The notes under the pieces: generated by a model
Database searches by the model: none
Told to the model about the DNA's origin: nothing
Seen by the model: only the letters and a program-made list of their open reading frames with translations
Origin: a virus
Reading direction: 5' to 3' (one strand)
Length of the DNA: 28,486 bases
Virus record (IMG/VR): IMGVR_UViG_3300025759_000511
Coordinates: 1 to 28,486 of that record
Shown: positions 4,882 to 24,095 of the stretch, piece after piece
Layout of the letters: every line of letters begins with the position of its first letter
Position numbering within the stretch: the first letter of the stretch is position 1
Position numbers and translations under genes: made by a program

Positions 4882-5655
4882 TTATAAATTACTGTTTTGA
4901 AGTTTTTGTTTAACTTCATTTTGATACGCAATATCTTTAGCATATTTAGGATTTGACATTGCTTCAGTAACTTGTGCCCAAGATTGAAAACCTTGTTCAA
5001 CACTAGGTGTAGCTTTGCCAGACATTAATTTAGGTTCAGTTCCGTTAGCTCTTTCGTATTGACCTTTAAGAGCATTAACAGCAAGTTTAACTGTTTCCAT
5101 ATCTGAACTATTTACCGCTTTGTTATATGCTTGTTTCTCACCATCCGTCATATTTTCAGCAGCCCAATCAACCATTTCTTTATACGCAGTATCACCACCA
5201 ACAGTATTTTTAATATCTGTGGAATATTTTTCAGCCAATGCTTGTTGACCAGAAATATAGTTATCAACATATTCTTTTGTTATCCCAACTTTTTCTAATG
5301 CTTCGTATGATTTAGCATCTAATTCACCTTTTTCTGCATATTCATTCTGCAATGAAGTCATATCTAAACCAGCAGATTCAACTGCTTTTTCAGCTACTTC
5401 TAAAGTGTTCTTATTTGCTTCTTGTTCTTTTAAAGTAGTTTTCCCAATTGGGTCAACTTCTTCTTTTTGAGATTGTCCACCAAGTTTCTTTTCTAACTCA
5501 GCATATGATTTAGCCAGTTCCTCAACAGAATTAAATTTTTCTGGTAAGCCTTCTGGTTTACTTTGTGTTGACTGTGTCTCGTTTGTTTGTTCTTGTGTTT
5601 CTACAGGCTTTTCTGAATTAGTTTCAGCTGCTTGTATTTCTACTTTTTCTACCAT
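4882..5655 (-). CDS. Capsid assembly scaffolding protein (T7 gp9-like)
   Basis: 257 residues, against 307 in T7 gp9. The sequence is strongly acidic and rich in Glu, Gln, Thr and Ser in its first 80 residues, with LPEKFNSVEELAKSYAELEKKLG around 38-60, a motif typical of T7-like scaffolds. The C-terminal region is predicted helical with a QSWAQVTEAMSNPKYA segment before a short basic end (KQKLQNSNL); in this family the C-terminus contacts the capsid protein. It lies between portal and capsid genes as in T7 and starts 3 bases after the portal stop. It is expected in procapsids and absent from mature virions. Confidence 0.92.
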   Translation of the reverse strand: MVEKVEIQAAETNSEKPVETQEQTNETQSTQSKPEGLPEKFNSVEELAKSYAELEKKLGGQSQKEEVDPIGKTTLKEQEANKNTLEVAEKAVESAGLDMTSLQNEYAEKGELDAKSYEALEKVGITKEYVDNYISGQQALAEKYSTDIKNTVGGDTAYKEMVDWAAENMTDGEKQAYNKAVNSSDMETVKLAVNALKGQYERANGTEPKLMSGKATPSVEQGFQSWAQVTEAMSNPKYAKDIAYQNEVKQKLQNSNL

Positions 5656-8618: not shown

Positions 8619-10379
8619 TTATCCTTCGCATGCCAGACAGCTATCAGCACTAGCTTCTGGTATTATTGTTCTTGCAATTTTACTTGATACTAACTCGGCT
8701 CTTTTAATAGCTTCTGAGCGAGTGTAATAAAGTGTTTTTAATTTTTTCTTCCAAGCCAACATATGTAGATTATGTAAATCTTTAATGTGTACGTCAGCTG
8801 GAATAAAAATGTTTAAGCTTTGACTTTGACAAATGTATTGTTGTCTGTCAGCAGCGTGTTCAATTACCCATTGTTGGTTAATCTCGATAGCAGTTTTGAA
8901 AACATCTTTCTCATATTCTGACAAATCTTCGAGATGAGCAACCGAGCCTCTTTGCGAGACAATGGATGTCCATATATTATCATTGTTTATCCCTTTCTTT
9001 TCTAATAATTTTTCTAAATGTTTATTCTTAACTAAGAAAGAACCAGACATTGTTTTTTGTACATAAGCATTTGCTCTGAATGGTTCTATTGATGGTGAAG
9101 TTGTTCCACAAATAATAGAGCTAGATGCATTAGGTGCAATAGCTAATAGATGTGCATTACGCATCCCTGTGCCTTCCATGTCAGGAGCCTCACCTCTCTT
9201 GACAGCAAGTCTTTGTGATTCAGCAACAGCTTGTTCTTTAATACTTTTAAATATTTTCATATTAATAGATTTAGCTAAAGCTGATTCAAAAGGTATTGAT
9301 TTAGATTGTAAATATGAATGAAATCCCATAGCACCTAAGCCAAGACTTCTCTCGGCAGCAGCACTAAACCTAGCTCTAAATAAATTTTCAGGAGCATTGT
9401 CAATAAAATATTGTAATACATTATCTAAGAATCTAATTAAATCAGGTATGAATAATGTATCATTTTTCCATTCATCATACTTTTCTAAGTTAACACTTGA
9501 TAGACAACAAACAGCTGTTCTGTTTTCATTTGTCGGTAAAGTTATTTCAGAACACAAATTAGAATGGTGTACTTTTAATCCTAAATCTTTTTGTGTTTGG
9601 GGTAATCCATCATTGATAGTATCAATAAAAGATATATAAGGCTCACCAGTATTAACTCTAACCTCTAATATTTTTAACCACAAATCTCTAGCTGATACTG
9701 TGCGTACAACTTTTTTTGTGTGTGGGTCAATAAGATTCCAACTGTCATCATAAGTAGGTTCTTTAATACACTTGTCTATTAACTCCATGAAATCATTTGT
9801 TATATTAATTCCATGATGTAAATTTAAATTCTTTCTATGTGCATCACCGCCAGTAGGTTTACGCATCTCAATAAATTCTATAATTTCTGGATGTGATATG
9901 TCCATGTAAGAAGCATAACTTCCTCTTCTAGTTTTACCTTGAGAAAACGCTAGTATCTCACTGTCAACTACATGCATGAATGGTATAGTTCCTGAACTAG
10001 CACTGCCGCCTGAAGTGGCCACACCATCAGAACGCACATGTCCCCAGTAACCACCTATGCCACCACCAACAGAAGCAAGCCAAGCGTTCTCTGTGTAATG
10101 ACCAGTTAATCCTTCTCTACTATCACCTACATAATTTAAAAAACATGAAATAGGCATGCCTCTTTTAGTACCACCATTAGACAAAATAGGCGTTGAATAC
10201 ATAAACCATAACTTAGATGCGTAGTCATATATTCTTTGTGCCATTTCATCATTATCTGAAAAAGCTTTTGCAGCTCTCATAAATGCATCTTGTGGTGATT
10301 TTTCTTCTGGCAATAAATATCTATCTTGTAATGTTTTCTTACCAAAGTGTGTTAATAAATCGTCTCTACTATACTCCAT
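8619..10379 (-). CDS. nrdA: Class Ia ribonucleotide reductase, alpha subunit (NrdA), no ATP cone
   Basis: 586 residues, against about 760 for E. coli NrdA. Active-site elements: C79 in ISCFLN (thiol partner); N274, C276 and E278 in SNLCSEI (radical cysteine); C291/C292 in AVCCLSSVNL; the radical-transfer Tyr pair at 551-552 in LYYTRSEA; and a C-terminal redox pair CLAC (C581, C584). A GGGIGGYWGHVRSDG loop follows C79. The N-terminal ATP-cone domain that carries the overall activity site is absent, so dATP feedback through it is not expected. The 3' end of speD overlaps its start by 11 bases. The gene supplies dNTPs during replication. Confidence 0.97.
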   Translation of the reverse strand: MEYSRDDLLTHFGKKTLQDRYLLPEEKSPQDAFMRAAKAFSDNDEMAQRIYDYASKLWFMYSTPILSNGGTKRGMPISCFLNYVGDSREGLTGHYTENAWLASVGGGIGGYWGHVRSDGVATSGGSASSGTIPFMHVVDSEILAFSQGKTRRGSYASYMDISHPEIIEFIEMRKPTGGDAHRKNLNLHHGINITNDFMELIDKCIKEPTYDDSWNLIDPHTKKVVRTVSARDLWLKILEVRVNTGEPYISFIDTINDGLPQTQKDLGLKVHHSNLCSEITLPTNENRTAVCCLSSVNLEKYDEWKNDTLFIPDLIRFLDNVLQYFIDNAPENLFRARFSAAAERSLGLGAMGFHSYLQSKSIPFESALAKSINMKIFKSIKEQAVAESQRLAVKRGEAPDMEGTGMRNAHLLAIAPNASSSIICGTTSPSIEPFRANAYVQKTMSGSFLVKNKHLEKLLEKKGINNDNIWTSIVSQRGSVAHLEDLSEYEKDVFKTAIEINQQWVIEHAADRQQYICQSQSLNIFIPADVHIKDLHNLHMLAWKKKLKTLYYTRSEAIKRAELVSSKIARTIIPEASADSCLACEG

Positions 10380-10794
10380 GTAAATTTGCTAATGCTCCTG
10401 ATGTTGAATAAGCTACGTCTTTTATTGAAGGCACAGTTATTAAACTATTGTTTCTATCTAATAATTTGTATTGAATTTTTGTTGGTTTAAATTGTTCAAG
10501 ATGTTTGAATACAATTTCTTCATGTAATGTAGAACAAGTATAAACATCTAATTGTATTAAAGATGGATTGTCTTCATCCCATACATGTAATGCTATGTGT
10601 GATGTTTCAATCACAGCAACACAAGTAGCTCCTTTGTTTCCTTTTTTGTCACAATAAAAAGCTTGTGGTTCTCCCATCAATTTCATTTTAATTTGTGGGA
10701 CTAAATCTTTAACCCATGTTTTAACTTCTTCAATGCTTTTAGGTGGCTGTGTTACCACAGCTCTAACAATTAAATGTTCGTGTGTAAGTATCAT
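10369..10794 (-). CDS. speD: S-adenosylmethionine decarboxylase-like proenzyme (SpeD family)
   Basis: 141 residues, the size of the bacterial class 1b proenzyme. The family self-cleaves at a Ser that becomes a pyruvoyl cofactor, then makes decarboxylated AdoMet for spermidine synthesis. Here S65, H70 and C87 (in ETSHIALHVWDED and QLDVYTCS) match the Ser/His/Cys set of the T. maritima enzyme. The usual SES before the His becomes ETS, so Thr replaces the Glu just before the cleaved Ser. The gene overlaps nrdA (11 bases) and abuts the DUF3310 gene. Related phage proteins may have altered decarboxylase specificity, so 'SpeD-like' is safer than a firm substrate. Confidence 0.85.
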   Translation of the reverse strand: MILTHEHLIVRAVVTQPPKSIEEVKTWVKDLVPQIKMKLMGEPQAFYCDKKGNKGATCVAVIETSHIALHVWDEDNPSLIQLDVYTCSTLHEEIVFKHLEQFKPTKIQYKLLDRNNSLITVPSIKDVAYSTSGALANLHGV

Positions 10795-17748: not shown

Positions 17749-20193
17749 TTATGCAAAAAAGAACTCACTTTTGGTTAATTGTTTAATATCTAAATCACCT
17801 TTTGCAGGTACTTCAGGTATTTTCTCATGCAGTTCAACAGGTAATTGTTTAAGTACATCATTTCTAAAATTAGCTAATACATCATGTTCACTGAACATAG
17901 TAACAAAAGCTTCTCTTAAAGATTTGTTTAATACTTCAACATCTGCCGCAGTTGTACCAAAGCTATCATGCACATTGCAGAAATTAGTAATACCATTTTT
18001 ATATGCGATATTAACTGTTTCCATCATTGCAGCACTATCAACACTGTGTACAACATTAGGTGCAACTCCATTGCCCATCCTAAGTTTATCAGTTTTGTCA
18101 GTCTCTGTGTTAATCCTAGGTTTAATAACTTCACCCATTAACATAGCCTTAACTCTTTTTGATTTCATTTCAGGATATGACTGATACACTGGAAAGCCAA
18201 CAGGCGTAACCCAATGCACTGGCAGCTGTTCTTTAGCAACTACTCTCGCAATAGTCTGTAAATAATTCATGCCAATTCTAGCTGACTTTAAATTATCACC
18301 AATACTATCCCAAATTACACTTGCCAAATAACTAGCAGGTCTGAACACATCTTCCGTAAAAGGATGTTCTTCGCCTTTGTCTTTTCTTTTGGTTAAATCC
18401 TCAACAACAAAGTCAGTGCATGAATATCTAGTTGAACCATAACAGATAGTCATAATACTGCGTTTAGTAGTTGAGCGTTTAATTCCATAATCAAGCCATT
18501 GCTGTGCAAATGGTTTATCTTCAAGTGCATCCATTTTTAATTTGTCAATAACTGCATTAGCAACTAATTGATAAATGTCTTGTGGTTTATCAGTAGGTGT
18601 TAAGTTAACCAACTTACCAGCTTTTTCATCTCTTAACATTAATGAATATATTTGAAGTCCATTACATGAACCATCAACATTCACTGGAATAGTAGAAATA
18701 AATCCAAAACCTTCTTCTTTGAATCTCTTCCACTCATCACAAAATGATAAAAATTGAAATGCATTAGAAGCTTCTTCCCATTGTCTGTTAACCATTGGGT
18801 CAGTAGCACAATCAATAATCATTTGCTCATTGTTTTTAACCCACTGCTCTCTGTCTTTTAAAGACACTTTATCTTCACCGTACATGTTAGCACCGTGTAC
18901 CGCTAACCAAAACGCACCTTTGTTTTCTTCGGTAATAGGTTTACCATGTGCAAAAGACAATAAAGCTTTAGCTCCAGATATACTTTGATAATTTAAAAAC
19001 GCAGGTATGCAATAAGCTCTTCCTCTAAAATCTAATTGCAAAGGAAAATATAAAGTTGCATAGTCTTTAAATTTATCAGCAAGCCACATAATTTTAGCAT
19101 ACAGTAAACGCTTAGAAAACATTCTAGCATTTTCAGTATGAGCCATAACAGCTTGTTTCTTCCAAGCTCTACGACTATCAGCATTAGTCTCAATGTCATG
19201 CGGTTTGTTTGGTATTTCATAATTAGTAATAGGCGGCATACCACCAATTGCTAATCCTTTATCCCAAGCTTCTTGCATAACTTTCAAGATAAATTTGTTT
19301 ATCTTAAATGATGTATTTTGCATAAGATTAACAGCGTTATAAACTTTTGGCATATCAAAGTTTTCAAGTTCTTTTTTAAATAACTTGTTTTTTTGTTTAA
19401 CCAAATCTAACTCTGGTAATTCTTTTGTCCAATACCCACCACCAACTACAGTTGACCACATTTTAGGTGGCATAACAGTTGGTAAGTATTCAGGATTTAA
19501 TAACTCATTAAACTCATTACGGTTATTAATCCAGTCTCTAGTTTTTTGAGTTTGTTTTATGATTTTAGCTTTTTTATGATTGATAGTCTCTGTACCAATT
19601 TCAATCATTCCAGTTGACATAATCATAAGTTCAACCAGTCTAAGACCAACATGTAATTTTACAGGTGTAGTCCATTCTTCCCAACTAACCACCCCACGCT
19701 TGGCAGTTTCTCTAAGTTTTCTACGTTTATAAGTGTAGTTAAATGACCTTTTGTCTAAGTCAGTTTTAACAGTATCATATAATTCAGGATTCAAAAATTT
19801 GAAATTCCTCAAAGCTATTTCAGTCTCAACTTTACCGCCAAGCGATATGCAAGTAGCAGTCAAAGGTTTATACTGTGTAATAGTATTAATGATATGTTTA
19901 CCAGTAATCAAAGCAAGTATTTCAGGTTCCACTTCACACATTTTAGTAAATGCAATAGATGGTTTTCCAATAGTTTGTTTTGATTGTTCTTCTACCCATT
20001 CAGCAATAGCCATTGCCAATGGTCTTATAGTGTTTGCAACCATTACTTTACCGTAACTGGTCACACTTTCCTCTTCACGCTCAACATGAGATTGAAGTCT
20101 TTTATTTGTTCTGTTTCTACCTAACGCAGCCATTTCTTTTTCATGTGCAAGCTCGTCAGAATATGTCGGCATACTCTCAATTAATTTAGCCAA
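17749..20193 (-). CDS. Single-subunit DNA-directed RNA polymerase (T7 gp1-like)
   Basis: 814 residues (T7: 883). Catalytic residues: D507 in NVDGSCNGLQIYS (motif A), K577 and Y585 in STTKRSIMTICYGS (motif B), and D743 in VHDSFGTT (motif C). PLQLDFRGRAY at 385-394 and the terminal FFFA (T7 ends in FAFA) also fit. The start codon is TTG at 20193, with TAGGAG 7 bases upstream; no ATG is better placed. The promoter-recognition loop lies around 670-700 and differs from T7, as expected for a different promoter. A copy of the phage promoter lies about 40 bases upstream, so the polymerase can transcribe its own gene after early host-driven expression. Confidence 0.97.
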   Translation of the reverse strand: MAKLIESMPTYSDELAHEKEMAALGRNRTNKRLQSHVEREEESVTSYGKVMVANTIRPLAMAIAEWVEEQSKQTIGKPSIAFTKMCEVEPEILALITGKHIINTITQYKPLTATCISLGGKVETEIALRNFKFLNPELYDTVKTDLDKRSFNYTYKRRKLRETAKRGVVSWEEWTTPVKLHVGLRLVELMIMSTGMIEIGTETINHKKAKIIKQTQKTRDWINNRNEFNELLNPEYLPTVMPPKMWSTVVGGGYWTKELPELDLVKQKNKLFKKELENFDMPKVYNAVNLMQNTSFKINKFILKVMQEAWDKGLAIGGMPPITNYEIPNKPHDIETNADSRRAWKKQAVMAHTENARMFSKRLLYAKIMWLADKFKDYATLYFPLQLDFRGRAYCIPAFLNYQSISGAKALLSFAHGKPITEENKGAFWLAVHGANMYGEDKVSLKDREQWVKNNEQMIIDCATDPMVNRQWEEASNAFQFLSFCDEWKRFKEEGFGFISTIPVNVDGSCNGLQIYSLMLRDEKAGKLVNLTPTDKPQDIYQLVANAVIDKLKMDALEDKPFAQQWLDYGIKRSTTKRSIMTICYGSTRYSCTDFVVEDLTKRKDKGEEHPFTEDVFRPASYLASVIWDSIGDNLKSARIGMNYLQTIARVVAKEQLPVHWVTPVGFPVYQSYPEMKSKRVKAMLMGEVIKPRINTETDKTDKLRMGNGVAPNVVHSVDSAAMMETVNIAYKNGITNFCNVHDSFGTTAADVEVLNKSLREAFVTMFSEHDVLANFRNDVLKQLPVELHEKIPEVPAKGDLDIKQLTKSEFFFA

Positions 20194-20572: not shown

Positions 20573-21148
20573 CTATTTTATAAAGTAGTTTTTAAAGTAT
20601 TGACCTTGTATTACAAAAGGTTTTGTTTTGTATTTAGTATCAATTTCTAATACACGCAATTTAAGCAAGTTATTAAGTTGTCTATTAATTGACCCTGCGT
20701 TAAGTTGTGGGTATTTGTCTCTAAGTTTTGCCAATAAAGGTTTTTTCTTAAATGGCACATTCTCAAAAACAAATCGCAATATACATTGTTGAACATCTTT
20801 TCTATCATCCTGCTTTATTATTTTAGTAGGCATAAATTGAATATCAGACAATTTATATTTCAAGTTTAATGCACTCCACCTAGTCAATGATGTTGTTTCA
20901 GTGTAGTTAGTGTAAACAAACTTAGCTTCCTGATAATCTAAAACTTTAATAACAATATTTTTATATTTGTTAAAATCAGCTTCAGACACACCAGCAGACG
21001 CATAATCACAAACGTTTACATTCCAGTGATTAGCTAACTTTTTATTTATAGTGTCATAAAAGATTATTTCTTTATCAGACACAAATCGCCGTCTAGTCTC
21101 TATATTGTCTATAAATGAACTTCTAGTATTCCAATCTGTAGAACTCAT
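20573..21148 (-). CDS. Hypothetical early protein, possible winged-helix domain (191 aa)
   Basis: 191 residues, the largest early gene before RNA polymerase. The C-terminal third (DVQQCILRFVFENVPFKKKP, then LLAKLRDKYPQLNAGSINRQLNNLLKLRVLEID) looks like a winged-helix fold with a recognition helix NAGSINRQLNNLL and a wing, suggesting DNA binding (inference). The N-terminal part has no known motif. The ATG at 21148 follows ACAAGGAGTAAAATAC, similar to the leaders of the ribozyme-linked genes, and a large RNA hairpin (21191-21236) precedes it. A host-takeover or transcription role is possible. Confidence 0.72.
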   Translation of the reverse strand: MSSTDWNTRSSFIDNIETRRRFVSDKEIIFYDTINKKLANHWNVNVCDYASAGVSEADFNKYKNIVIKVLDYQEAKFVYTNYTETTSLTRWSALNLKYKLSDIQFMPTKIIKQDDRKDVQQCILRFVFENVPFKKKPLLAKLRDKYPQLNAGSINRQLNNLLKLRVLEIDTKYKTKPFVIQGQYFKNYFIK

Positions 21149-21190: not shown

Positions 21191-21236
21191 AAAGCAACAG
21201 ACTAGGCACACCAATAGCGTACCTAGTTTGTGCTTT
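21191..21236 (-). other. Long RNA hairpin, possible decayed hammerhead
   Basis: On the minus strand AAAGCACAAACTAGG pairs with CCTAGTCTGTTGCTTT (one mismatch and one bulge) around a 15-base loop. Two parts correspond to hammerhead features of the neighbours: AAA-CTAGG...CCTAG-TC followed by TGTTGC looks like A15.1/stem III/U-C and the 3' strand of stem I. CUGAUGA, stem II and the first G of GAAA are missing, so it cannot cleave as a hammerhead. It may instead be a processing or stabilising hairpin. Confidence 0.7.
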
Positions 21237-21243
21237 AGTGTTG

Positions 21244-21459
21244 TTATTTGTTTTCTCTGGTGTCAATTGTCACGGTAACCATGACAGACCCACAAAAATG
21301 ATGGTGGTGGTCTTCGTTCAAATTATCCAAAAATTTGGCAAAGTCTCTGGCTGTTATGCCGTCATTGAATTTGAATTCATTTGTGGTAATTGTAAACGGC
21401 TTGTTGTTTTTGTCGTACTCATCACCTAAAACGTTAATTACTGCATTGTTTATATACAT
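21244..21459 (-). CDS. Hypothetical early protein with His tract (71 aa)
   Basis: 71 residues from the ATG at 21459, which follows CAGGAGTAATAAC. The frame is open upstream to 21543, but that extension would run through the hammerhead at 21495-21552 and the ribosome-binding site, so it is rejected. The protein reads MYINNAVINVLGDEYDKNNK at its start, then GITARDFAKFLDNLNEDHHHHFCGSV; four His in a row followed by Cys may bind metal. Function unknown. Confidence 0.7.
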   Translation of the reverse strand: MYINNAVINVLGDEYDKNNKPFTITTNEFKFNDGITARDFAKFLDNLNEDHHHHFCGSVMVTVTIDTRENK

Positions 21460-21483: not shown

Positions 21484-21494
21484 AAGTTGCTTAT

Positions 21495-21552
21495 GCAACA
21501 GACACCGCCTTTGTGACGGTGTTTCGACTATTAAAAGTCTCATCAGTGTTGC
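21495..21552 (-). ncRNA. Hammerhead ribozyme, type I (copy 1)
   Basis: Read on the minus strand. Stem I: GCAACA (21552-21547) with TGTTGC (21500-21495), 6 bp. Core CUGAUGA at 21546-21540. Stem II: GACT/AGTC with a 6-base loop. Core GAAA at 21525-21522. Stem III: ACACCG (21522-21517) with CGGTGT (21507-21502) and a 9-base loop. The GUC cleavage site ends at C 21501, so the cut falls between 21501 and 21500. All invariant core bases are present. It starts 2 bases after the 142-aa gene's stop and lies upstream of the 71-aa gene. The 3' product can begin with a hairpin GTTGC-ATAA-GCAAC. Confidence 0.93.
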
Positions 21553-21554
21553 TA

Positions 21555-21983
21555 TTAGTGGCCAGCTTTAGAGTAACCAGCATTTAACTTAATACGCTCA
21601 GCAAGTCTGCTGTTTCTAAGCTCTTTGTCTTTGGCTTCTTTAATTATATCATTTACAGCAATAAATGCTTTACGCTGGCCTGAATACGCTTTTTGTAATT
21701 CTTTTCTAAAGTCTTCAATATACAAAATACGTTTCTCCTTTGCTTCTTTAGAACCGCCGTCAATTGCATTTAAATGTTTTCCTGTTGTATTGCCCCAAGC
21801 ATTAGCACGAACCACGAGGCCAGACAAAGTATGGTGGAAAGCAACTAAAGTTGAATAACTAAAATAATAAGTAAAACCGTTGTTTTCATCTCTAAATGCA
21901 ATTGCTGGTGTTTTACTGCCATTTTTTACATAATTGTAATAAAAAGGCAAATCATAGTCATAGCTATTGTTATTGTTTGTCAT
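21555..21983 (-). CDS. Hypothetical early protein (142 aa)
   Basis: 142 residues. Central block FTYYFSYSTLVAFHHTLSGL, VVRANAWGNTTGKHLNAIDGG, then EKRILYIEDFRKELQKAYSG. The YSTLVAF ... NxWxxTTGKHLNxIDGG pattern occurs in uncharacterised proteins of many phages; I know no activity for it. It starts after an A/C-rich leader with TAGGAG, downstream of the type I hammerhead at 22022-22078, and its own stop abuts the next hammerhead, so its mRNA would be cut out by ribozymes on both sides. Confidence 0.78.
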   Translation of the reverse strand: MTNNNNSYDYDLPFYYNYVKNGSKTPAIAFRDENNGFTYYFSYSTLVAFHHTLSGLVVRANAWGNTTGKHLNAIDGGSKEAKEKRILYIEDFRKELQKAYSGQRKAFIAVNDIIKEAKDKELRNSRLAERIKLNAGYSKAGH

Positions 21984-22021
21984 AATGTTTAACTCCTATT
22001 TGTTTGTTTGTTATTGCGTAT

Positions 22022-22078
22022 GCAATAGACACCGCATTGCAGCGGTGTTTCGACCAATAAAGGTCTCATCAGTATTGC
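22022..22078 (-). ncRNA. Hammerhead ribozyme, type I (copy 2)
   Basis: Read on the minus strand. Stem I: GCAATA (22078-22073) with TATTGC (22027-22022), 6 bp. Core CUGAUGA at 22072-22066. Stem II: GACC/GGTC with a 6-base loop. Core GAAA at 22051-22048. Stem III: ACACCGC (22048-22042) with GCGGTGT (22035-22029), loop TGCAAT. The cleavage base is C 22028; the cut falls between 22028 and 22027. Relative to copy 1, stem I changes C-G to T-A and stem II changes T-A to C-G, both compensated. The 3' product can start with TATTGC-ATAC-GCAATA, a perfect 6-bp hairpin. Confidence 0.95.
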
Positions 22079-22079
22079 T

Positions 22080-22427
22080 TTAGGGTTTTGCTGGACTTGG
22101 TCTTGATTGAACTTTGAACGGTGGTTCAATGTAATCAATAAAAACTTTGCCATCAATTGAATAATAGACGGCTACTTGCCCAGCCTCTGCTGCGTATTTT
22201 TTTGCAATGTCAGCTATGATGGAAACTTTAGCACCATTAATGGCTGTTTCATAGATTTTTACAGGCTCATCATATACTACACCGTCACTGTACCAAACAC
22301 CTTGGCCATCTGTTATTGTACAGCCTGAAAAAACTGTTACAATTTCAGTTTTAAGACGTGCATGCAATGAAGTTAGTGCAACGCCGTCATTATCATTAAC
22401 AGGCATGTTTATTTTGCATATTATCAT
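22080..22427 (-). CDS. Hypothetical early protein (115 aa)
   Basis: 115 residues. It reads INMPVNDNDGVALTSLHARL, then GCTITDGQGVWYSDGVVYDEPVKIYE and VAVYYSIDGKVFIDYIE, a compact alpha/beta pattern with no transmembrane segment. The DGxGVWY...YDEPVKIYE stretch recalls small phage proteins of unknown function. It overlaps nothing, starts 1 base before the end of the 55-aa gene (ATAATATG region) and ends 1 base before hammerhead copy 2. Confidence 0.75.
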   Translation of the reverse strand: MIICKINMPVNDNDGVALTSLHARLKTEIVTVFSGCTITDGQGVWYSDGVVYDEPVKIYETAINGAKVSIIADIAKKYAAEAGQVAVYYSIDGKVFIDYIEPPFKVQSRPSPAKP

Positions 22428-22428
22428 A

Positions 22429-22596
22429 TTATAGCCATCCTTCCTTAGATGCTTTTCTTAGCATCTCAATTTTTTTGTTTTTGTCTGTTTCTTTTTGATA
22501 AGCGTTAAAAAACTCCTGTTTTTCAACTTTATCTATGTAACGCTCTTTATGTCGTTGAGCGTGCATATTTTGCACTGCTTTGTTAATTGTGGGCAT
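22429..22596 (-). CDS. First early protein, unknown function (55 aa)
   Basis: 55 residues from the ATG at 22596, with CAGGAG 9 bases upstream. It starts MPTINKAVQNMHAQRHKERY, is strongly charged and helical, and ends SKEGWL. No family recognised. It is the first ORF after the sigma70-type promoter (22861-22889) and lies just downstream of the type III hammerhead, so its message is expected to start at the ribozyme cut (22664), giving a 68-base leader. The position suggests immediate-early expression. Confidence 0.7.
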   Translation of the reverse strand: MPTINKAVQNMHAQRHKERYIDKVEKQEFFNAYQKETDKNKKIEMLRKASKEGWL

Positions 22597-22597
22597 T

Positions 22598-22620
22598 GTT
22601 ATTACTCCTGTTTGTTTGTT
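22598..22620 (-). repeat. 23-base leader repeat, copy 1 (RBS cassette, part of ribozyme stem III)
   Basis: Identical to 21461-21483 over 23 bases. Here its ACAAACAA part doubles as the 5' strand of stem III of the type III hammerhead, directly next to the AGGAG Shine-Dalgarno (22609-22605). At the other copy the same cassette follows a type I ribozyme and is not part of the catalytic fold. Confidence 0.9.
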
Positions 22621-22675
22621 TCGCTGTTTACTGTGTCAGCTCATCAGTCATAGATATACTATAAGACAAACAAGC
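22610..22675 (-). ncRNA. Hammerhead ribozyme, type III
   Basis: Read on the minus strand. The 3' strand of stem III is TTGTTTGT (22673-22666), followed by C 22665, the cleavage base (cut between 22665 and 22664). Stem I is a closed hairpin TTATAG/CTATGA (22664-22659 with 22653-22648, one G-U) with loop TATAT. Core CUGAUGA at 22647-22641. Stem II: GCTG/CAGC with a 10-base loop. Core GAAA at 22622-22619. The 5' strand of stem III, ACAAACAA (22619-22612), pairs perfectly over 8 bp; C22610-G22675 can extend it past one mismatch. The open stem is III, a different permutation from the other two copies. Confidence 0.92.
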
Positions 22676-22860
22676 ATCCGTAACAGCTAAAAGCCCGCTG
22701 ATGCGTTTTATGTGGGTTGTCCAGTCGCTTAGAAACTATCTAGAATGCATAATGCAAACTGCGGTGGCACTAAGTTTTAATATGTGTTTAAAGTCCGTTA
22801 AAACCAACAAAAATGAGACTTAAAAGCATAATACATATTTAAAACTAATATACAACAGTT

Positions 22861-22889
22861 ATTATAAAGAAATAATCAATAGTATTCAA
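22861..22889 (-). promoter_or_regulatory. Sigma70-type early promoter
   Basis: The minus strand has TTGAAT (22889-22884), a 17-base spacer, and a perfect TATAAT (22866-22861). It faces the early genes and lies just downstream of a terminator. Transcription would start near 22854, giving a leader of about 190 bases before the type III hammerhead cut. A weaker second candidate (TTGTAT, 16 bases, TATTAT) lies further downstream near 22826-22853. This is the expected host-polymerase entry point, like T7 A1-A3. Confidence 0.72.
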
Positions 22890-22913: not shown

Positions 22914-22945
22914 AAAAAAACAGGCATATCCTAAGAATACACCTG
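22914..22945 (-). terminator. Factor-independent terminator before the early promoter
   Basis: On the minus strand CAGGTGTAT (22945-22937) pairs with ATATGCCTG (22929-22921), a 9-bp stem with two G-U pairs and a 7-base loop, followed by seven T. It separates transcripts from the right (late end, or the 23161 promoter) from the early transcription unit. Confidence 0.8.
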
Positions 22946-23029
22946 CATTAAACATACTACTAATAACAATACTATAAATAATACATCTATAATAAGTAAT
23001 GCCTCTAGTATAAGCCATAGTTTATGCAT
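22931..23029 (-). CDS. Possible 32-aa hydrophobic peptide
   Basis: An ATG at 23029 opens 32 codons, MHKLWLILEALLIIDVLFIV and on to a TAG inside the loop of the terminator. Nearly the whole peptide is hydrophobic and would span a membrane once. AAAGG lies about 10 bases upstream. It is the only ORF between the 23161 phage promoter and the terminator, which would make a neat one-gene unit. AT-rich DNA easily yields Leu/Ile-rich ORFs by chance, so this is tentative. Confidence 0.3.
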   Translation of the reverse strand: MHKLWLILEALLIIDVLFIVLLLVVCLMQVYS

Positions 23030-23160
23030 GTAGTAAATACCTTTAGTTAATAGTTAATGAGTAAGTAAATAATAGATATACCCAGATATAACCAGAGTAT
23101 AACAAGTATAATACTTATTACTAATTACTATACTATATACTTAGGTAAAGCCTGTTTATA

Positions 23161-23178
23161 CTAATATGGGAACCTTAA
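23161..23178 (-). promoter_or_regulatory. Phage RNAP promoter at the left genome end (T7 phi-OL-like place)
   Basis: The minus strand reads TTAAGGTTCCCATATTAG, sharing 17 bases (all but the first) with the opposed copy at 23535-23552 and 16 of 18 with the RNA polymerase promoter. It points to the early genes but meets a terminator after about 220 bases. T7 has phi-OL, linked to replication initiation, between its left end and the early promoters. Confidence 0.7.
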
Positions 23179-23206
23179 TGTATTTAGTATGCATATGCTT
23201 TATGTC

Positions 23207-23268
23207 ATACCATATGTAGTATGCTTATATATTGTGTGTGTGCTTGTTGTTATACCATATGTTGTATG
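23207..23268. repeat. Paired CATATG elements in a TG-rich stretch
   Basis: ATACCATATGTAGTATG (23207-23223) and ATACCATATGTTGTATG (23252-23268) match at 16 of 17 bases and begin 45 bases apart, about four helical turns. Each has partial dyad symmetry (CATAC...GTATG). They sit among TGTGTG runs and a further GCATATGC at 23191-23198. They could be protein-binding sites for replication, packaging or regulation. Confidence 0.6.
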
Positions 23269-23534
23269 TGTGTGCTGTGTGTGTGCTATGCGTATGCTAA
23301 AGGTAAAAAAACAGACAAGCTCACAAGCACGCCAAAACATTTTGACCACCTATAGCATACCAAAAGCCTACCCTACGCCTGCCTGCGTGTCCCTTTAAGC
23401 GTCTATATGTGCCTTAAAAGTATTTTTATGGGTACAGGCCTGTCCCTTTTGGCTGACTTTAGGTGATGCCTACGGGGAAAACCGCCTCGGCCAGTATCGA
23501 TATACCCCCTCATATTTTTCTACCAAATATTTGA

Positions 23535-23552
23535 GTAAGGTTCCCATATTAG
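23535..23552 (+). promoter_or_regulatory. Phage RNAP promoter motif in opposite orientation
   Basis: The plus strand reads GTAAGGTTCCCATATTAG followed by GGAAAA, the closest of all copies to the T7 start (TAGGGA). It is inverted relative to every other copy and would drive transcription into the antisense of the endolysin and terminase genes. It contains a small dyad, TTCCC-ATATTA-GGGAA. Confidence 0.6.
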
Positions 23553-23582
23553 GGAAAAGCTGGGTTAACTATGTGTATATAC

Positions 23583-24095
23583 TTATTCCATCATACCATT
23601 ATTGTCACCTTTTAAATTGACCATAATGTTGTATAATGCCATAGCTCTATCAGGGGTTTGTAAAGACCATTTACTAGGTGTACCTTCTTTTGAACCCTTT
23701 AGCATCTCATTAGCAGCTTTTGTAGTATCACCTGCTCTAAGATGTTTAAGCATTGTAGGAAACTTAGATATTCCCTGTTCTCCCATTTGAAAAACCATTT
23801 CTGTAAGTACCCCAAATGCTTCTGGTTTAACAGTAGCCCCATTAAGAAGCCTCTTTGCTCCTTGTGCAGCTGTTAAAAACGTTTCTTTAAACTTCTCCTC
23901 AACAAATGCATCATCAACATAATCATTTTCTTTTAACTCAGAATTTTTAGGAAGTTTATATCCAATTCCAACAGTTAAATAACCCTCAGTATCTTTATAA
24001 ACTTGATTCTTTTTACCCTCATGTTTCTTAATACGTTCTTTAACTTGCTCCATATGTGGGTCATTAATTATGTCTATTTTATTATTTATATCCAT
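23583..24095 (-). CDS. Endolysin, GH24 lysozyme (T4 lysozyme-like)
   Basis: 170 residues. The catalytic triad is clear: E26 in KKHEGKKN, D35 in VYKDTEGY and T41 in LTVGIGY, with the same spacing (9 and 6) as E11, D20 and T26 of T4 lysozyme. Later conserved features include GVLTEMVFQMGEQGISKFPTML and LQTPDRAMALYNIM near the C-terminus (family pattern RR...E...). No signal peptide is evident, so it needs the holin to reach the wall. It cleaves murein beta-1,4 bonds. It overlaps TerL by 10 bases and is the last late gene before the junction region. Confidence 0.94.
   Translation of the reverse strand: MDINNKIDIINDPHMEQVKERIKKHEGKKNQVYKDTEGYLTVGIGYKLPKNSELKENDYVDDAFVEEKFKETFLTAAQGAKRLLNGATVKPEAFGVLTEMVFQMGEQGISKFPTMLKHLRAGDTTKAANEMLKGSKEGTPSKWSLQTPDRAMALYNIMVNLKGDNNGMME

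Follow-up and report, generated by a model that had tools for sequence, protein, structure and literature searches.

Serially arranged hammerhead ribozymes in the early operon of a T7-like pelagiphage and their probable role in self-processing of the early message

In phage T7, the polycistronic early message is cut by the host RNase III, and hairpins remain at the message ends. The locus described here raises the question of whether the early message of a T7-like phage of SAR11 may be cut by ribozymes encoded within the message itself. It lies on the minus strand of a 28,486-nucleotide stretch of viral DNA (IMG/VR record IMGVR_UViG_3300025759_000511, positions 1 to 28,486), hereafter called the window. 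The T7-like RNA polymerase, primase-helicase, DNA polymerase, terminase and head genes of the window identify it as a T7-like pelagiphage, with HTVC031P, Eistla, HTVC168P and HTVC142P as its nearest isolates (RNA polymerase identity of about 85%).

The early region is of the T7-like kind (Autographiviridae, Pelagivirus), with small early genes placed after terminase and lysozyme and upstream of a single-subunit RNA polymerase. All of these genes are on the minus strand. The first one encodes 55 amino acids (22429–22596; no PHROG match) and is followed by genes of 115 aa (22080–22427; phrog_3543) and 142 aa (21555–21983; phrog_5643), both of PHROG families of unknown function, and by genes of 71 aa (21244–21459) and 191 aa (20573–21148), neither with a PHROG match; the T7-like RNA polymerase gene (17749–20193), assigned from PHROG and relatives, closes the block. 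The best sigma-70-like promoter candidate for the early transcript (TTGAAT-17-TATAAT, 22861–22889, minus strand, 10/12 consensus matches) and, upstream of it, a terminator-like hairpin with a T-run (22920–22946, minus strand) come from a consensus scan only, and the promoter-like sites of this region show overall no excess over shuffled sequences. Past the lysozyme gene, three non-coding blocks on the minus strand (23450–23600, 23226–23344 and 23108–23183), which include a CACACA-rich stretch, are conserved at about 70–85% identity among pelagiphages. Elsewhere in the window, an S-adenosylmethionine decarboxylase-like gene (phrog_3125; 10369–10794, minus strand) adjoins the ribonucleotide reductase genes.

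The search of both strands of the window with a hammerhead descriptor (CUGANGA, stem II, GAA, A-U-closed stem III, H17 and stem I) revealed exactly three hammerhead ribozymes (HHRs), all on the minus strand of the early block between lysozyme and RNA polymerase, and none on the plus strand. They are a type III HHR at 22612–22673 (cut at 22665/22664; 6, 4 and 8 pairs in stems I, II and III), a type I HHR at 22022–22078 (cut at 22028/22027; 6, 4 and 7 pairs) and a second type I HHR at 21495–21552 (cut at 21501/21500; 6, 4 and 8 pairs). The conserved core CUGANGA...GAA with the A15.1-U16.1 pair and H17 is present in each of them. Types and strand are as described in the first-pass annotation, and the descriptor reproduces the three cut sites of that annotation to the base; the annotation's division of the genes into units of 55 plus 115 aa, 142 aa, and 71 aa onward also agrees with the gene map. 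The minimum free energy fold of RNAs stopping at the end of stem I is the exact hammerhead shape for both type I copies (−20.9 and −20.1 kcal/mol), and the type III copy scores 71.3 bits with the family model R1, whose training set contains this very sequence.

The HHRs of the window are not chance matches, as evident from the absence of descriptor matches in 100 first-order Markov simulations with the dinucleotide make-up of the window, and from 90 sense against 0 antisense matches in 77 related loci. Eight of these 90 matches (stems of 5, 3 and 3 pairs) were coding sequence within the DNA polymerase gene and were dropped later. The first-pass annotation had also suggested Rfam models or a descriptor search as a check; the descriptor found all three elements, but Rfam at its gathering cut-off gave no match in the window nor in four relatives. 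Below the cut-off, the type I copies are found by RF03152 (RAGATH-1-hammerhead) and RF00163 (Hammerhead_1), which have the same core and type I topology and are their best Rfam matches: RF03152 gives 30.2 bits for the copy at 22022–22078 and 33.1 bits for that at 21495–21552 against a cut-off of 56.3 bits, and RF00163 gives 20.5 bits for the former against 34. The type III HHR of the window is missed even below the cut-off. Sub-threshold scores are likewise obtained for the type III HHR of HTVC031P with RF00008 (Hammerhead_3; 41.4 bits, cut-off 48.5) and for the type II HHR of HTVC109P with RF02276 (Hammerhead_II; 30.5 bits, cut-off 37).

Conservation of the hammerhead core was seen in 40 distinct sequences of type I and 23 of type III, and about 150 distinct sequences have it intact when all three topologies are taken together. 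The three stems around it carry compensatory changes, with both partners changed at 12 of 17 pairs in type I (20 diverse sequences) and at 9 of 17 in type III (10 sequences), and the signal collapses when the 3' partners are slid by 1–3 columns. This covariation is inflated and partly circular, as stem pairing was already required by the descriptor that selected the aligned sequences; because of this preselection, the antisense and simulated controls outweigh it. Inspection of the loop sequences for a tertiary contact between stems I and II revealed no clear conserved pseudoknot.

The placement of the HHRs between genes is equally regular. Type I elements start 4 nt (median) ahead of the end of the preceding stop codon, with UAA often inside stem I (GUAACA), and the median distance from their cut to the following ATG is 41 nt; the cut of a first-position type III element typically precedes the first ATG by about 65 nt. 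Of the 63 distinct type I and III HHRs, only 2 lie inside an ATG-started open reading frame of at least 40 aa. The order of stop codon, HHR, cut, Shine-Dalgarno and ATG is conserved across many related phages, and many leaders have AACAAACAAACA in common, followed by the purine-rich Shine-Dalgarno. That the HHRs cut the early message into separate units, as the first-pass annotation proposed, is strongly favoured by this conserved placement, the cutting itself being a prediction.

A fourth type I HHR has decayed in the window. Its relic (21194–21244, minus strand; model match of 19.4 bits, E 0.006) lies between the 71-aa and 191-aa genes, i.e. before the latter, and keeps stems I and III, but has lost stem II along with the greater part of the core. 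An intact orthologue occupies the same place in a related locus (L002, 223–285), and a further decayed version is seen in L003 (2321–2371) and L004. The relic here and the intact copy in L002 suggest that the window phage probably descends from an ancestor with four cuts, and that its own last message probably extends from the 71-aa gene through the RNA polymerase. Decay of the fourth site in the window phage and its near relatives indicates that the cuts are not all essential. The set of three in the first-pass annotation therefore stands for intact copies, but the window also holds this decayed fourth, and relatives have up to five HHRs including type II. The stems kept by the relic form a long interrupted hairpin, which could conceivably be an RNase III substrate.

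HHRs were found in eight isolates, namely HTVC031P, Eistla, HTVC168P, HTVC142P, HTVC109P, HTVC019P, HTVC304P and HTVC022P, and a probable one (38.7 bits) in HTVC121P; none of the records examined carries a ribozyme annotation. Related arrays hold 2–5 HHRs, and type II elements occur in about 30 loci, including the isolates HTVC031P, Eistla, HTVC109P and HTVC168P. Complete arrays, from terminase or lysozyme to RNA polymerase, read III-I-II-I (10 distinct), I-I-I, III-I-I, III-II, III-II-II or III-III-I-II-I, and five-member III-I-II-I-II arrays also exist. Among 42 distinct arrays preceded by terminase or lysozyme, 35 begin with a type III element; the 94 later elements of the same arrays are type I in 60 cases, type II in 30 and type III in 4, so that type III is occasionally internal (Fisher p of about 4e-21 for type III in first against later places, a value that overstates the independence of related loci). 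As the loci overlap and share ancestry, such counts are descriptive. The ribozyme in front of one downstream gene family is of type I in some cases and of type II or III in others, and selection therefore seems to act on the cut rather than on the architecture.

The RNA polymerase groups of the HTVC120P type (12 loci) and of the CRP-125 type from Roseobacter (77 loci) were tested as further carriers, and the descriptor matched 0 of 89 loci; many of these loci are fragments, perhaps without the early region. The unrelated viral contigs L098, L112, L101, L108, L128, L159, L094 and L116 also have HHRs, either type I elements in series of at most three or one or two type III elements; for L112, a groEL match was found in a public phage record. 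A Neomarinimicrobiota MAG contig (L256, NZIV01000032.1) contains pelagiphage-like DNA with one HHR each of types II and III, and is probably a mis-binned phage. A subset of type I copies (L014, L016–L021 and others) has a long insertion in stem II (TATTATGCGTGGTAAGTGAATACCACGT), apparently before one small gene family (MIEL... protein).

The topologies differ in the ends that they would leave on the message. After a type I or II cut, the closed stem III hairpin would form the end of the upstream message, which would carry a 2',3'-cyclic phosphate, and after a type II or III cut, the downstream message would begin with a 5'-OH on the closed stem I. The upstream product of a type III cut would have an unprotected 3' end, and the counts suggest that this topology is mostly reserved for positions at which no gene lies on the upstream product. 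With type I alone, the downstream message would start single-stranded, but in about half of the distinct type I leaders the strand so freed could pair with a copy of its former partner further downstream, a refolding predicted to block religation and to protect the 5' end. As 5'-OH ends are poor substrates for the 5'-monophosphate-dependent RNase E, such ends would fit message stabilisation.

Both type I copies of the window have such a refolding hairpin on the minus strand: UAUUGC-AUAC-GCAAUA (22012–22027), which stands at the new 5' end and whose 5' arm is also part of stem I, and GUUGC-AUAA-GCAAC (21486–21499), one base from the new 5' end. In a strict test, where the hairpin had to be 5'-terminal and start at the first or second base, it is possible in 22 of 48 distinct type I leaders (1.3 expected; maximum of 6 in 500 shuffles) and absent from the other 26; an earlier run gave 18 of 36 against 1.0 expected. 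In non-pelagiphage contigs, it was found in 0 of 11 cases. A looser test (long loops, start at the first base only), with 13 of 40 against 6.0 expected, was superseded by the strict one. The refolding arm varies in step with stem I (GCAAC, GUAAC, GCAAUA, UGACA). For the first type I copy, the hairpin competes with stem I after about 10 more nucleotides are transcribed, and therefore cleavage has to be rapid if it is not to remain partial; in energy, the leader hairpin and the hammerhead fold are almost equal.

These observations make it likely that the early mRNA is serially self-processed by its HHRs into hairpin-capped products. We infer the cleavage, the single transcript and the effects on stability from sequence, structure, conservation, placement and refolding potential. 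The early region would be transcribed as one long RNA and would cut itself at three HHRs, i.e. before the first gene (type III), after the 115-aa gene (type I) and after the 142-aa gene (type I). The type III element would trim a non-coding leader, and each type I element would work at a gene junction, its stem I beginning at the upstream stop codon and its cut falling about 40 nt before the next start.

The same junctions can be read differently. With the stop codon often in stem I, a terminating ribosome would cover the core, and the HHRs could thus be translation-coupled switches rather than constitutive cutters, their cutting reporting translation of the upstream gene and the leader hairpin serving as a second off-state. 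The start of type I elements close to the stop codon and the near-equal energies of the leader hairpin and the hammerhead agree with this reading. It is nevertheless unlikely, since overlaps between signals and stop codons are frequent in compact phage genomes, the first-position type III has no gene just upstream, type II elements occupy comparable junctions, and no regulatory input was identified. The ends produced by hammerhead cleavage (5'-OH and cyclic phosphate) are open to ligation, and the defined segments that serial arrays delimit might give rise to circular or spliced RNAs by cleavage and ligation between adjacent HHRs; this is highly improbable, as adjacent ribozymes often differ in topology and the refolding hairpins of 22 of 48 leaders would block religation. 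Moreover, such products were sought in prophage arrays by Perreault et al. (PMC3088659) and none were found.

Inactive remnants, or conserved DNA or terminator signals that merely resemble hammerheads, might explain why the Rfam gathering cut-offs are not reached and why one clear relic lies in the window. That explanation is quite improbable in view of the roughly 150 distinct sequences of three topologies with intact cores and covarying stems, and of the strict sense-strand and intergenic placement; the relic itself shows what decay looks like, and the terminator scan flagged none of the three intact HHRs. It is also improbable that the arrays merely move as gene-ribozyme cassettes, with the ribozyme as a passive passenger or as a homology linker for the shuffling of early genes. 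Related early-operon genes do each have their own ribozyme and share the CAAACAAACA leader, as such cassettes would, but the topology in front of one gene family varies, and topology is set by position, with type III first, more than by gene identity. Serial self-processing remains the preferred reading.

The type III cut of the window falls next to a further candidate element, a conserved structured leader RNA (22674–22771, minus strand) ending beside stem III of the HHR. It is alignable in 30 distinct pelagiphage leaders, which form three sequence groups, and its conserved motifs are GGAAAACCC, AGCGGGC and GTTACGG. Helix P2, the 3' strand of which adjoins stem III of the ribozyme, has at least 5 pairs in 9 of 10 leaders examined, the tenth (L011) having been misparsed by the script, although the sequences are largely different (GCATC/GATGC in the window, CCCAGA/TCTGGG in L071, AAGCTGT/ACAGCTT in L081). 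With helices paired by hand, P2 has a mean of 6.0 pairs against 3.8 with swapped partners; helix P1 also covaries, in one group. Rfam gave no match to the leader RNA of the window and of four relatives, and a MAFFT and RNAalifold consensus of the divergent leaders gave little signal. Cutting by the type III HHR would release this leader RNA.

In Eistla, L034, L064, L257 and L259, the leader RNA is present and the type III HHR is replaced by a pseudoknot-like element of about 110 nt, element X (L079 ~2645–2768, corresponding to Eistla MT375521.1 8139–8279; L034 ~4930–5050; L064 ~5140–5260; also in L257 and L259). Its core, UUUUUUCURUGG(G)UUAGAAUUGUAAAAUUAA, is near-invariant. Its helices differ in sequence yet pair (AACAGC/GCUGUU and AGUGAG/CUCACU; GCACG/CGUGC and CUUCG/CGGAG), and the basal helix is followed by a strand-exchange hairpin (GAUUAAC-AUAA-GUUAAUC; GGUUAAC-AUUA-GUUAACC). 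Rfam gave no match to element X in Eistla and, in L034, two implausible ones far below the cut-off. Element X, known from two distinct lineages only, may be a self-cleaving RNA or an RNase III site. A tentative extension, which we hold to be rather doubtful, is that pelagiphage early operons are cut by interchangeable self-cleaving RNAs that are not all HHRs, with element X as a new class and the type III cut maturing the 3' end of the leader. If true, element X would be a new class of self-cleaving ribozyme, and the leader would be an early small RNA made by a ribozyme.

The first-pass annotation knew of no serial set that processes a T7-like early operon; for serial sets acting on phage messages, a precedent exists in prophages. 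Its proposal that the cutting is independent of host RNases also reaches further than the present evidence. Clustered type I, II and III HHRs flanking prophage genes were described by Perreault et al. (2011, PMC3088659), who proposed processing of long phage transcripts and reported cleavage in vitro and in E. coli. As in those clusters (Agrobacterium tumefaciens, Azorhizobium caulinodans, Clostridium scindens; PMC3088659), several HHRs flank single genes or short blocks here and lie on one phage transcript strand. Unlike those clusters, which are prophage regions of varying gene content, the present arrays lie in the early operon of a T7-like SAR11 phage and have a conserved order (type III first, then I or II), placement at stop codons, a shared leader and refolding hairpins. 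Halovirus HF1/HF2, a lytic tailed virus, similarly has an HHR in its early region, in front of an early helicase gene (PMC3088659); this HHR, however, was described as a single copy, has a core insertion and lies 13 nt before the start codon, and the host is haloarchaeal. Among the papers searched, none on hammerheads in pelagiphage or Autographiviridae genomes was found, the few co-mentions being unrelated by title and abstract. The principle is thus known from prophage clusters, and the novelty lies in its setting in a T7-like SAR11 early operon, in the conserved order and stop-codon placement of the HHRs, and in the refolding hairpins.

The intergenic cuts of the early message around the phage RNA polymerase gene resemble the RNase III processing of T7, but the predicted cutters are ribozymes acting in cis rather than a host protein, and the ends would be 5'-OH and cyclic phosphate. 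The arrays occupy the setting in which T7 uses RNase III and predict exact 5' ends in isolates that can be used for infection in the laboratory. For HTVC022P, an HHR-bearing isolate (MH598798.1; predicted cut at 2353/2354), infection RNA-seq has been published (PMC12753301), and self-processing may therefore be checkable in existing reads. The roles of bacterial and phage hammerheads are mostly unproven; here, they form a conserved and repeated design in culturable phages of the very abundant SAR11, and the rule that ties topology to position, together with the refolding hairpins, suggests why one phage would use all three hammerhead architectures.
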